Assembly (NCBI RefSeq): GCF_028737315.1
Contig: NZ_JAQZAO010000006.1
Span: forward strand, 248,001 to 312,000
Length of the DNA stretch: 64,000 nucleotides
Direction: 5' to 3'
From: Actinomycetospora lemnae
GTDB taxonomy: Bacteria; Actinomycetota; Actinomycetes; Mycobacteriales; Pseudonocardiaceae
Part shown: piece by piece, positions 7,788 to 11,076 of the stretch
How the letters are laid out: each line of letters opens with the position of its first letter
Numbering within the stretch: the first letter of the stretch is position 1
Program-made: the position numbers and the translations under genes
The notes under the pieces: generated by a model
What the model was told of the DNA's origin: nothing
The model's input: the letters and a program-made list of their open reading frames with translations, nothing else
The model's database searches: none

Positions 7788-8480
7788 TCACCCGAGGCGG
7801 TCCGCGACTGCGGCGGCCAGCATGGCATGGCCCTCGGGCGTGGGGTGCATGCCGTCCTCCTGCATCGGCAACCGCAGGTCCAACAAGGGTATGTACCGTC
7901 GATCGGCGCGGTCAGCTGCCTCGTGGAGGATGTCGTCGATCCTCTCGGCGCCCCCGACGCGAGGCAGCGTCACCGGCCCGAGGACGACGACCTCCGGAAC
8001 GTCGGCCACAGCCTCAAGTAGCTGATCGGCGGCGGCCGCGAGCGCCGCGCTGTCCGTTTCGAGGTCGTTGAGGCTCCCCTGCACGACGATCGTGCGCGGC
8101 CCGTGGGCGAGCACCTCGGGGATGCGGTTGAGGTAGTAGGAGTCGCCGCACGGGCCACCAGACGTGAGTCCAGAGTTCCCGACGCCGTCGACGTAGGTCG
8201 TCCAATGTCGGGCGAGACCGAGCCGGGTCGCCCAACCCTCGGTGGCCGCATGCCGGAGGCCGTACCCGGCGGTGTAGGAGTCCCCCAGGACCACGACGGC
8301 CCGGTCGCCCTGGGTGACCGCGTAGGCAGGTCGCAATTCGTTGCCTTGCTCACGACTGAGCTGGCAACCGTCGGTGCTCCGGACGTCTGCCGGCCTCGTA
8401 CACGAGGTGCTCCCGGCCAGGAGGACGAGCGTCACGAGAGTGGCGGTCAACCAGGAGCGATGACGTCCCCCACACGACAT
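7788..8480 (-). CDS. SGNH/GDSL hydrolase lipoprotein
   Basis: The 230-residue protein has a lipoprotein signal ending in LLAGSTSC, so it should be anchored outside the membrane. Block I is VVLGDSYTAGYG with the catalytic Ser, and block V is EDGMHPTPEGH with the catalytic Asp-x-x-His. Block III is GSLNDLE with Asn. These esterases remove acetyl or acyl groups from glycans or lipids. Lying back to back with the flippase operon, it could deacetylate the polymer that the acetyltransferase at 4780 modifies. The start is ATG 8480. Confidence 0.85.
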   Translation of the reverse strand: MSCGGRHRSWLTATLVTLVLLAGSTSCTRPADVRSTDGCQLSREQGNELRPAYAVTQGDRAVVVLGDSYTAGYGLRHAATEGWATRLGLARHWTTYVDGVGNSGLTSGGPCGDSYYLNRIPEVLAHGPRTIVVQGSLNDLETDSAALAAAADQLLEAVADVPEVVVLGPVTLPRVGGAERIDDILHEAADRADRRYIPLLDLRLPMQEDGMHPTPEGHAMLAAAVADRLG

Positions 8481-8650
8481 CTGCCCAGCTTTGCACGCTC
8501 AGCAGAGCCGGCTCCTGCTCCTCGCGTCGCGCGGGCAGCCGGGGCGCCCAGTGCTGCCGGTGGTCGACTGCCCCGCGCACGGCCGCTCGCGCCCGATCAA
8601 CCGCCGCGATCAGAACTCCGTTGGCCCGCAGCCTAATGGGAGCGCACCGG

Positions 8651-8830
8651 CCGTCGTGCGGTTCGCTGGTGTCCGAGCCGCCGGTGGGGTGAGCACTGCA
8701 GGGGCCAGGCCTTTGAGGTCTAGGGCTAGATCGTGCCCCTCGTCGGTGGGCGAGGAGTTCGTAGGGGCTGGTGGGATGTCGTGCCCGGCCGACGCGCCGT
8801 GAGCACTGATCCATTAGGTCGCACCCGTTC
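8651..8830 (+). ncRNA. Bridge RNA (guide RNA) of the IS110 element
   Basis: The RNA ends are approximate. Three parts can be seen. (1) A 5' stem-loop at 8658-8681: GCGGTTCG pairs with CGAGCCGC around an 8-nt loop. (2) A target loop closed by AGGGGC (8700-8705) and GCCCCT (8735-8740), containing GGGCTAG (8723-8729), complementary to core plus right flank CTAGCCC at 10124-10130; AGGCCT (8707-8712) is a weak left-target guide. (3) A donor loop with GTGGGATGTC (8771-8780), identical to the right end at 10115-10124, and CCATTAGG (8811-8818), complementary to the left end at 8632-8639. The order matches IS110-group bridge RNAs. Confidence 0.75.
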
Positions 8831-8851
8831 TCCTCCAGACTCACCGGATCG

Positions 8852-10102
8852 GTGCGAGCGAAGGAGAGGCTGGTGCTGTTCGTCGGAGACGACTGGGCCG
8901 AGGATCATCACGACGTCGAGATCGTCGACCAGGCCGGGCAGCGGCTGGCGCGGCGGCGTCTTGACGAGGGAGCGGCCGGCCTCGCGGCGCTGCACGCGCT
9001 GATCGGCGACCATCTCGACCCGGACGCGGAGTCCGACCAGGTGCTGGTCGGAATCGAGACCGACCGCGGGCCGTGGGTGCAAGCCCTGCTCGCTGCGCGC
9101 TATGTCGTCTATGCGGTCAACCCGCTGCAGGCCGCCCGCTACCGGGAACGCCACGGGGCCTCGGGCGCGAAGAGCGATCCCGACGACGCGCACGTGCTGG
9201 CCGAGCTGGTGCGCCTGGACCGGGACCACCATCGCCCGATCGCCGGTGACTCGACGGTCGCCGAGCACGTCAAGGTCGTCGCCAGGGCCCATCAGTCGAT
9301 GATCTGGTCGCGGCAACGACAGACCAACACGTTGCGTTCGATGCTGCGCGAGTACTACCCCGCTGCTCTGGCCGCGTTCGACGACCTCGCCGGGCGTGAC
9401 GCTCTCGCGGTGCTCGCGCTGGCACCGACCCCGGCCCAGGGCCGGCGCTTACGCGGGGCGCAGGTCGAGAAGGCACTGCGCGCCGCCGGCCGCCAGCGCA
9501 ACCTCTCCGCGGCCGCCCAGCGCATCGTGCAGACGCTGCGCGCCGAGCAGCTCGAGGCCCATCCCGGGGTGGTGGACGCCTACGCCGCGAGCGTGAAGGC
9601 ACTGGTCGCGGTGATCGGCGAGCTCGCCCGCCAGTGCGAGGTCCTGCGAGGCGAGGTGCAGGCGGGTTTTGGGCGGCACCCGGACGCTGAGCTCTACCTG
9701 TCCCAGCCCGGGCTGGGATCAGTGCTCGCCGCCCGGGTGCTCGCCGAGTTCGGAGACGACCCCACCCGCTACGCCGACGCGCGGGCGCGCAAGAACTACT
9801 CCGGCATGGCCCCGGTCACTCGCGCCTCGGGCAAGACCCGGGTCGTGCTCGCCCGCCATGCCCGCAACCGGCGCCTGGCCGACGCGCTCTATCAGCAGGC
9901 CTTCGCCGCCCTGAACACCTCACCCGGCGCCAGGGCCTACTACGACGCTCACCGCGCCCGCGGCAACACCCACCACCAAGCCCTGCGAGCCCTCGCCAAC
10001 CGGCTTGTTGGCATCCTGCACGGCTGCCTACGCCACCAACGTCCTTACGACGAGGCCACCGCATGGCACCTCGAGGACAACACCACCCCAGCCGCAGCTT
10101 GA
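8852..10102 (+). CDS. IS110-family DEDD transposase/recombinase
   Basis: This is a full-length 416-residue recombinase starting at GTG 8852. The N-terminal RuvC-like DEDD domain shows D13/D14 (FVGDDWAE), E69 (GIETDRGP) and D109 with D111/D112 (KSDPDDAH). The C-terminal Transposase_20 domain carries NYSGMAPVTRASGKT, with the candidate nucleophile S326. The family joins circular donor DNA to a target through a bridge RNA encoded next to the gene. The roughly 220-bp non-coding part lies upstream of the gene, placing it in the IS110 rather than IS1111 group. No frameshift is seen, so it is probably active. Confidence 0.93.
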   Translation: MRAKERLVLFVGDDWAEDHHDVEIVDQAGQRLARRRLDEGAAGLAALHALIGDHLDPDAESDQVLVGIETDRGPWVQALLAARYVVYAVNPLQAARYRERHGASGAKSDPDDAHVLAELVRLDRDHHRPIAGDSTVAEHVKVVARAHQSMIWSRQRQTNTLRSMLREYYPAALAAFDDLAGRDALAVLALAPTPAQGRRLRGAQVEKALRAAGRQRNLSAAAQRIVQTLRAEQLEAHPGVVDAYAASVKALVAVIGELARQCEVLRGEVQAGFGRHPDAELYLSQPGLGSVLAARVLAEFGDDPTRYADARARKNYSGMAPVTRASGKTRVVLARHARNRRLADALYQQAFAALNTSPGARAYYDAHRARGNTHHQALRALANRLVGILHGCLRHQRPYDEATAWHLEDNTTPAAA

Positions 10103-10106
10103 CCGC

Positions 10107-10991
10107 TTACGACCGTGGGATGTCTAGCCCCAGGTGCCCACGGAGCTCGGAGACCACGGCGTCCGGCGCCTCCTCGGGCAGGAAGTGCCCGGCGTCGAGC
10201 GGCCCGCCGCGCACGTCGTCGGCCCACTGCCGCCACACCGCGAGCGGGTCGTACCAACGGTGCACGGCCCCGGTCGCGCTCCACAGCGCGAGGACGGGGC
10301 AGCGCAGGTGATGGGCGCCGCGGTCGGCCTCGTCGTGCTCGACGTCGGCGGTGGCGGCGGCGCGGTACTGCTCGCAGATGGCGTGCACGCGGTCGGGGTC
10401 GCGGAAGGTCGCGGTGTAGCGCTCGCGCAGCCACGGGGAGAAGACGGACGGGTCGTCGGACCAGCTGTCGAGCATGTGGTCGACGAACGTGCCCGGCGCC
10501 CCGAGCACGAGCTGCTCGGGCACCGGCGCCGGCGCGGCGAGCATCGACCAGACCCAGTAGCCCAGCGCGAACTCGCGGTCGGCGCGGGCGAAGGCTTCGG
10601 CGGTCGGGACGACGTCGAGGACGGCGAGGCGGCGGACGTGGTCGGGGTGGTCGAGGGCCATCCGGTAGGCGCAGCGGGCGCCGCGGTCGTGGCCGGCGAC
10701 GGCGAAGCGCTCGTGGCCCAGCGCCCGCATGACGGCGAGCTGCTCGGCGGCGAGGGCGCGCATGGAGTGGTCGCCGGAGGTCCCGACGCCGCTGGCGCCG
10801 TAGCCGCGCAGATCGGTGGTGACGACGGTGTGGTCGGCGGCGAGCGCGGGCGCGACGTGGCGCCACATCAGGTGGGTCTCGGGGATGCCGTGCAGGAGCA
10901 GCACCGGCGGCCCGGAGCCCCCGACACGCCCGTGCACGGTGGTGCCCCCGACGCGCACATCGACGACGTCGAAGCCGGGGAAGAGCGACAC
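10107..10991 (-). CDS. Alpha/beta hydrolase of the fluoroacetate-dehalogenase/epoxide-hydrolase type, C-terminus replaced by IS110
   Basis: The 294-residue protein has the oxyanion loop HGIPET, DLRGYG at 60-65, and the nucleophile D102 in GHDRGAR, with R103 and R106 spaced like the carboxylate-binding arginines of fluoroacetate dehalogenases; the catalytic His is in GHFLPEE. The cap has YWVW (145-148), whereas fluoroacetate dehalogenases have YWHW, so the halide-pocket His is Val. The last six codons (DIPRS and stop) come from the IS110 right end; without the insertion the frame would end GCGPTEF at 8610. Activity on epoxides or other haloacids is possible. Confidence 0.85.
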   Translation of the reverse strand: MSLFPGFDVVDVRVGGTTVHGRVGGSGPPVLLLHGIPETHLMWRHVAPALAADHTVVTTDLRGYGASGVGTSGDHSMRALAAEQLAVMRALGHERFAVAGHDRGARCAYRMALDHPDHVRRLAVLDVVPTAEAFARADREFALGYWVWSMLAAPAPVPEQLVLGAPGTFVDHMLDSWSDDPSVFSPWLRERYTATFRDPDRVHAICEQYRAAATADVEHDEADRGAHHLRCPVLALWSATGAVHRWYDPLAVWRQWADDVRGGPLDAGHFLPEEAPDAVVSELRGHLGLDIPRS

Positions 10992-11076
10992 GCGAGGACC
11001 TCCTCCGGTGGACGAGGCCGCGAGGAGCTCCGAGGGACGCGGCGTCCAGCACGCCCTGAATCAGCCTAGGGCCGAG

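Follow-up and report, generated by a model that had tools for sequence, protein, structure and literature searches.

What decides where an insertion sequence lands is the question raised by an IS110-group element in Actinomycetospora lemnae. The element lies in a 64,000-nt stretch of contig NZ_JAQZAO010000006.1 (assembly GCF_028737315.1, positions 248,001 to 312,000, forward strand), which we call the window and whose numbering is used throughout; the genome amounts to 6.06 Mb in 30 contigs. An initial annotation, made from the letters alone, had proposed a guided element with core CT. Our analysis agrees: with a probability that we put at about 0.95, this is an insertion sequence of the IS110 group that encodes, in its long left end, a bridge RNA naming its own DNA site. 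Carrying this reading are the covariation of guides and flanks across 51 guide sets, a close pair of copies with differing guides, and a stretch collinear with the joined flanks of one relative, L058. The order of the loops (target before donor), the right target guide GGGCTAG, and the donor guides as first annotated are likewise supported by the guide-flank covariation. The parts of the element are collected in Table 1.

Table 1. Features of the IS110 element and its flanks, in window coordinates
Feature	Position	Strand	Remarks
Left target flank CCCGCAGC	8625..8632	+	left guide matched at 4/8
Whole IS110 element, including both CT core copies	8633..10125	+	element proper 1,491 bp
Left end / right donor CTAATGG	8633..8639	+	pairs with right donor guide
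Conserved 5′ stem	8645..8671	+	8645-8651 pairs with 8665-8671
Bridge RNA region, match of covariance model R1	8668..8820	+	window copy among the 12 training rows of the model
Target-binding loop	8691..8736	+	closed by GCAC 8693-8696 / GUGC 8733-8736
Left target guide GCAGGGGC plus core C (GCAGGGGCC)	8698..8706	+
Hairpin within target loop, AGGCC/GGUCU	8707..8721	+	8707-8711 pairs with 8717-8721
Right target guide GGGCUAG (core plus five bases)	8723..8729	+	
Left donor guide GUGGGAUGU plus core C	8771..8780	+	
Donor-loop inner stem	8781..8806	+	GUGC 8781-8784 / GCAC 8803-8806
Right donor guide CCAUUAG	8811..8817	+	
Handshake base of donor loop	8818	+	pairs with the target base before the core (C8632)
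IS110 recombinase, 416 aa, GTG start; DEDD_Tnp_IS110 and Transposase_20 (Pfam)	8852..10102	+	frame intact
Right end / left donor GTGGGATGT	10115..10123	+	
Core plus right target flank CTAGCCC	10124..10130	+	right guide matched at 7/7

Guides and flanks vary together across relatives

Relatives of the element were gathered by a scan of genome contigs, which yielded 352, and the best 80 of these 352 were kept. Within the genus, 17 of 18 genomes (own counted) gave some DNA match, often short, and at the family level 64 of 390 genomes (own counted) matched at E 1e-6. Covariance model R1, built from 12 copies including that of the window, was run on 90 sources and matched 89; L022 had no match, and that of L023 was weak (E 0.025). 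Element ends were placed by the donor guides alone (at least 6/7 on the left and 9/11 on the right), and the target loop was never used. The 89 matches came down to 76 that passed end location, 69 with both flanks, and finally 51 distinct guide sets, each represented by its first copy in order of model score.

Across these 51 sets, the right flank matched its guide at a mean of 4.43 of five positions (1.70 when shuffled) and the left flank at 5.25 of eight (2.62 when shuffled), with 0 of 10,000 shuffles as high in either case. From −8 to −1, the left match frequencies were 0.33, 0.41, 0.55, 0.63, 0.76, 0.78, 0.88, and 0.90, against shuffled values of 0.27–0.32 everywhere except at −1 (0.63); from +1 to +5, those on the right were 0.98, 0.94, 1.00, 0.92, and 0.59 (shuffled, 0.26–0.49), with background from +6. 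Best kept were +1 to +4 (0.92–1.00) and −1 to −4 (0.76–0.90), and −8 and −7 hardly so, the value at −7 being reached by 157 of 10,000 shuffles. In register, the left guide scored 0.657 against 0.327 for shuffles, and the other registers from −4 to +3 gave 0.27–0.34. Two relatives, L045 and L048, had left guides that matched the flank over eight and seven bases running, one base out of register.

In a scan of all RNA columns against all target positions, guide positions accounted for nine of the ten best pairs and the handshake base for the remaining one. The complementary pairs were 8727, 8726, 8725, and 8724 with +1 to +4, together with 8818 and −1; the same-letter pairs were 8705 to 8701 with −1 to −5. 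Taken whole, the right target guide (8727..8723 against +1..+5) gave z 4.3 to 11.6 and the left (8705..8700 against −1..−6) z 4.9 to 10.2. For the handshake, agreement of 8818 with −1 was 0.90 where 0.68 was expected (z 6.9), and a counterpart is published for IS621, between RNA position 166 and target position 7 (PMC11208158).

The same scan corrects one guide. AGGCCT had been annotated as the left target guide, and we rejected it: the scan points to 8698-8706, and AGGCC pairs within the covarying hairpin of the target loop. The accompanying expectation of an imperfect left site holds with the corrected guide. All the strings on which the annotation had relied were found where it placed them: GTGGGATGTC at both 8771-8780 and 10115-10124, CCATTAGG at 8811-8818 as the reverse complement of CCTAATGG at 8632-8639, and GGGCTAG at 8723-8729 as that of CTAGCCC at 10124-10130. 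They go beyond chance, since the same columns match in relatives bearing other letters. The complementarity of CCATTAGG to the left end stands for its first seven bases, and the eighth is accounted for by the handshake with target base C8632, with no pairing to the left end.

Because shuffling disregards descent, we also compared related pairs of copies with at least 78% DNA identity and different guides (n = 139, the pairs being non-independent). Their own flanks fitted better in 131. Neither outcome named beforehand as refuting a guided element, empty sites that put the ends elsewhere or guides that fail to follow their flanks, appeared among the copies that could be compared. The closest pair consists of the window copy and one from A. 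lutea, 94.5% identical over 1,233 bp, in which guides and flanks both differ (guides GCAGGGGC/AGCCC and GCAGGCAC/AGCGC, respectively); own flanks were fitted at 19/26 and swapped flanks at 15. The A. lutea copy was pieced together from two contig ends (L023 and L005), which makes its row an inference, and L005 was scored with the guide from contig piece L023. This copy (G007 contigs C17 and C73) is apparently broken in the target loop at the CTAG of the right guide, with other sequence at both contig ends, perhaps through another insertion into the guide itself.

Donor guides matched the ends of their own elements, a partly circular result since the donor guides located those ends. One relative, L009, showed a matching donor change on both sides, and L006 did likewise with one mismatch in addition.

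Among all 69 two-flank copies, the left match was at most 4/8 in 19 and the right match 4/5 or 5/5 in 64. Thirteen of the 89 model matches had been dropped. The right end failed in L041, L021 (where an internal deletion shifts it beyond the searched stretch), L061, L108, L087, L003, and L002; the left end failed in six, four at contig starts (L049, L111, L005, and L036) and two whose right donor guide is broken or missing (L090 and L023). A full flank was lacking in 7 of the 76 kept copies (L046, L071, L072, L074, L075, L010, and L110). Judged by eye, the right guide fitted at 5/5 in the dropped rows L021, L111, and L005 and at 4/5 in L061, L108, and L049; the left fit was 8/8 in L002 and L003, the right end being uncertain in the former and not found in the latter. 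L046 had a left score of 1/8. In L021/L007 (G004 contig C34), both ends and the guides are present and the recombinase gene apparently has a large internal deletion (query matches 1-526 and 892-1493).

The bridge RNA has a conserved structure

The full bridge RNA probably starts near 8640, ahead of the region matched by the model. Four helices were examined in 25 aligned copies. The 5′ stem was paired in 94.7% of cells, with both-side changes in four of its seven pairs; the helix closing the target loop (helix 2) was paired in 100%, with both-side changes in two pairs, one sequence each; and the hairpin within the target loop (helix 3) was paired in 88.8%, with both-side changes in four of five pairs and its outermost pair open in 12 of 25 copies. 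The inner stem of the donor loop (helix 4) was paired in 25/25 copies and, being invariant, gives no covariation evidence. Jointly, 95.4% of cells were paired, and the covariation score was 0.367 as against 0.135 for shuffled and 0.043–0.105 for slid alignments. The 5′ stem is not the stem-loop first drawn at 8658-8681: that hairpin (8659-8665/8674-8680) forms all seven pairs in the window copy and 0–6 of them in the other 24, and we rejected it as the conserved stem.

A covariance-model search had been suggested as a check. With the model from 12 copies, the RNA was detected in all 80 relatives kept from the genome scan, 71 of them non-training rows and nine training rows; L039, L040, and L094 duplicate training row L038 in their RNA, a contig end truncates L036, and L090 is displaced from its gene. 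An Rfam search of 8000-11000 at E up to 1 returned no bridge-RNA family, its sole match being Ms_AS-4, antisense inside the gene.

Open reading frames overlap this region on both strands, so one could take it as coding and the matches as by-products. We give that explanation almost no credence: relatives differ there by indels of many lengths and the stems are kept by both-side changes.

Borders and recombinase of the element

The CT dinucleotide occurs at 8633-8634 and at 10124-10125, and the length of the element proper results from assigning one CT to the element and the other to the target. Its non-coding left end is long (8633-8851, 219 nt, upstream of the gene) and its right end short (10103-10123); with 21 nt from stop codon to right border, there is no downstream RNA region of the IS1111 type. 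The 76 kept copies, the window copy included, are 1,466–1,543 bp long, except L098 (1,610 bp), whose right end was probably miscalled and whose right match is 1/5; it falls outside the 51 sets. In its own genome the element is single-copy, a DNA search having found two other places, both at 66% identity (L002 and L003).

That the core stands at both borders is seen directly, and that nothing else is duplicated rests on relative L058. Once its two flanks are joined, they match an uninterrupted stretch in L078 with no gap at the junction (97 of 122 positions identical, 20 of the 122 lying right of the junction), with CG in L078 where CT is expected. This collinear counterpart supports the placement of the borders. 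An element between two CT copies without further duplication is what cutting next to CT followed by strand exchange would leave. L058 and L078, both from Mycobacterium species, hold two IS110 relatives with different guides at two positions within one stretch of ~120 bp.

The recombinase matches PF01548 (E 2.7e-31) and PF02371 (E 1.7e-14), both beyond the cut-offs, corresponding to a RuvC-like DEDD domain and a Tnp domain. A search of solved structures with its sequence found chains of IS621 and ISCro4. Residues D14, D109, D112, and S326 align opposite D11, D102, D105, and S241 of IS621, provided that the chain there has two extra residues; the catalytic roles of these residues in IS621 are described in PMC11208158.

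The insertion site of the A. lemnae copy

At its own site the right guide fits at 5/5 plus the core, and these five letters occur in one of 50 other right flanks. The left arm is less telling: foreign left flanks match the window copy's guide at a mean of 2.60, and 9 of 50 reach 4, so for this copy alone the left arm is not significant. A shifted left-guide register was considered as the cause of its weakness and rejected, the best shifted run in the window copy being just 4; across the sets, shifted runs of at least five occur in 3/51 against 1.66 expected, without significance as a class.

Conceivably the left guide drifted after insertion, leaving an element that names a site absent from its genome. 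The left arm matches at 4/8, and the genome holds no site with zero or one mismatches to the 15-base guide target, the best 14 having two; 378 sites have up to three mismatches, and the reversed pattern gives 1,258. We regard drift as unlikely all the same. Left arms of at most 4/8 are common (13 of 51 guide sets), and the occupied site equals any of the five other copies of GCCTAGCCC in the genome (262 for the reversed control), whose left arms score 4, 4, 4, 3, and 3 of 8. The 6 Mb thus offer about six such places, its own counted, and the one that the element occupies is no worse than the others.

Comparison with insertion-free DNA, also suggested at the outset, yielded an uninterrupted counterpart for L058, as described, and no empty site for the insertion in the window among 17 other genus genomes. 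In these genomes the left neighbour region has zero matches at E 1e-10. The right neighbour matches nine of the 17, starting 27–37 bases into the flank in the closest four and 2–46 bases into it in several genomes further removed; none of the matches in the nine runs on into the left flank. A stray 38-base left-flank match in L148 lies inside the right-flank match.

The two 66% relatives in the same genome, L002 and L003 (contigs C30 and C26), are inserted in copies of a palindromic repeat, with left flank CCCTTGACCGCGAGC. In L157 (contig C24) a third repeat copy is uninterrupted, with the sequence CCGCGAGC-CT-CGACG; by eye, this site fits the left guide of L002/L003 at 8/8 and the right guide of L003 at 5/5.

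Weighing the reading

Several results count against a guided element, beyond the missing empty site. Folded alone, the window copy's RNA is no more stable than its shuffles (z 0.72). In the recombinase, Glu69 was assigned by motif, and the IS621 alignment is offset by three residues there. The left arm of the window copy reaches only 5 of 8 even when G-U pairs are allowed. Target position −8 does not rise above background (its value was reached in 4,165 of 10,000 shuffles), guide positions 8700 (−6, z 4.9) and 8723 (+5, z 4.3) rank only 12th and 20th in the column scan, and off-guide pairs are interspersed, such as 8765 against +2 (z 5.7); in the scan of donor positions described below, they reach z 6.7. 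Shuffle statistics ignore relatedness, and among the 139 related pairs three prefer swapped flanks and five tie.

Some of this would suit a site chosen by the protein, with the likeness of RNA and flank a coincidence or an inheritance from a common target. Many right flanks start with A, −1 is mostly C (the shuffled match there is already 0.63), and off-guide column pairs score too, as shared ancestry would produce; we take those pairs to reflect such ancestry. Protein choice is nonetheless very improbable, given that flank and guide letters covary, at −1 to −6 as well as +1 to +5, in the register that the guides predict, with other registers near shuffled values, and that related recombinases with different guides occupy correspondingly different sites.

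Neighbouring and overlapping features

Adjoining the element, a minus-strand frame at 10107-10991 resembles alpha/beta hydrolases, as judged by eye. It lost its original end to the insertion, its last codons now coming from the element's right end, and relatives show different C-terminal ends. Within the element, the match to Ms_AS-4 (RF02464, an actinobacterial small RNA) covers 9703-9784 on the minus strand, opposite the Tnp portion of the recombinase gene; of 20 relatives searched, 17 have the same antisense match inside the gene. It is either an antisense RNA of this branch of insertion sequences or a sign that the Rfam family tracks conserved coding sequence.

Mechanism and comparison with known systems

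The mechanism is the published bridge-RNA one (PMC11208160 and PMC11208158, for IS621), of which the element is a good further example and no new system. By analogy with that work, the RNA would be transcribed and the element excised as a circle, and the window copy may be active. The left target guide would pair with the bottom strand left of CT and the right target guide with the top strand, starting at CT and running to the right; the donor loop would pair where the two ends meet in the excised circle, GTGGGATGT-CT-AATGG (the donor written GTGGGATGT-CT-AATGGGAGC). Holding both DNAs on the RNA, the recombinase would then cut beside CT and exchange strands.

With IS621, as described in these papers, the element shares an IS110 recombinase with DEDD and Tnp domains, an RNA from the long left end, the CT core, a 5′ stem followed by target and donor loops, a stem loop between the target guides, the handshake base, and a left guide on the bottom and a right guide on the top strand. 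In the IS621 target loop, the published order runs from a stem through the left guide and a stem loop to the right guide, in agreement with the corrected left guide. The element differs in its right target guide, which extends five bases past the core; that of IS621 is shorter, and longer ones are known in other orthologues. Its right donor guide seemingly pairs over seven contiguous bases, whereas in IS621 nine RNA bases pair discontiguously with seven DNA bases, two being flipped out. Unlike in IS621, distal left positions contribute little in this branch, −8 being at background and −7 weak.

In the donor scan, RD+4 agreed with 8812 at 1.00 (expected 0.60, z 8.6) and RD+5 with 8811 at 0.96 (expected 0.57, z 6.3), a partly circular test since left ends were sought with the same seven bases. 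Two points speak for contiguous pairing: the left ends so found also fit the left target guide, and the six left-end failures reduce to four contig starts and two broken or missing guides. Tentatively, then, this branch might have a geometry unlike that of IS621, with right donor pairing unbroken over seven bases, a right target arm of five bases that is strict over its first four, and distal left bases that hardly count; guide turnover between close copies would follow. Two relatives, L045 and L048, even use a left guide shifted by one base. We lean somewhat away from this proposal, since in the donor scan the off-guide pairs come close in score to the donor-guide pairs.

Likeness extends to the seekRNA elements of the IS110 and IS1111 groups (PMC11187229), in which, for the IS110 type, a non-coding RNA upstream of the transposase gene likewise guides site choice and different elements use different sites, as here. 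IS1111 elements are described there with an RNA region that is usually downstream, subterminal inverted repeats, and a reversed guide order; the window element has the IS110 layout. Likened on protein sequence, the ISCro4 recombinase (chain 9t56_A) is a recognisable but distant relative, best over the Tnp domain. In the library of papers searched, none covered both Actinomycetospora and IS110.

Collectively, the rules of bridge RNAs worked out on an Escherichia coli element can be read in the raw sequence of a distant actinobacterial branch. The analysis supplies 51 guide-site pairs from nature, mismatches included, along with a covariance model for this branch. The known mechanism is unchanged by them, and the guide-site pairs may aid the choice of recombinases for genome engineering.

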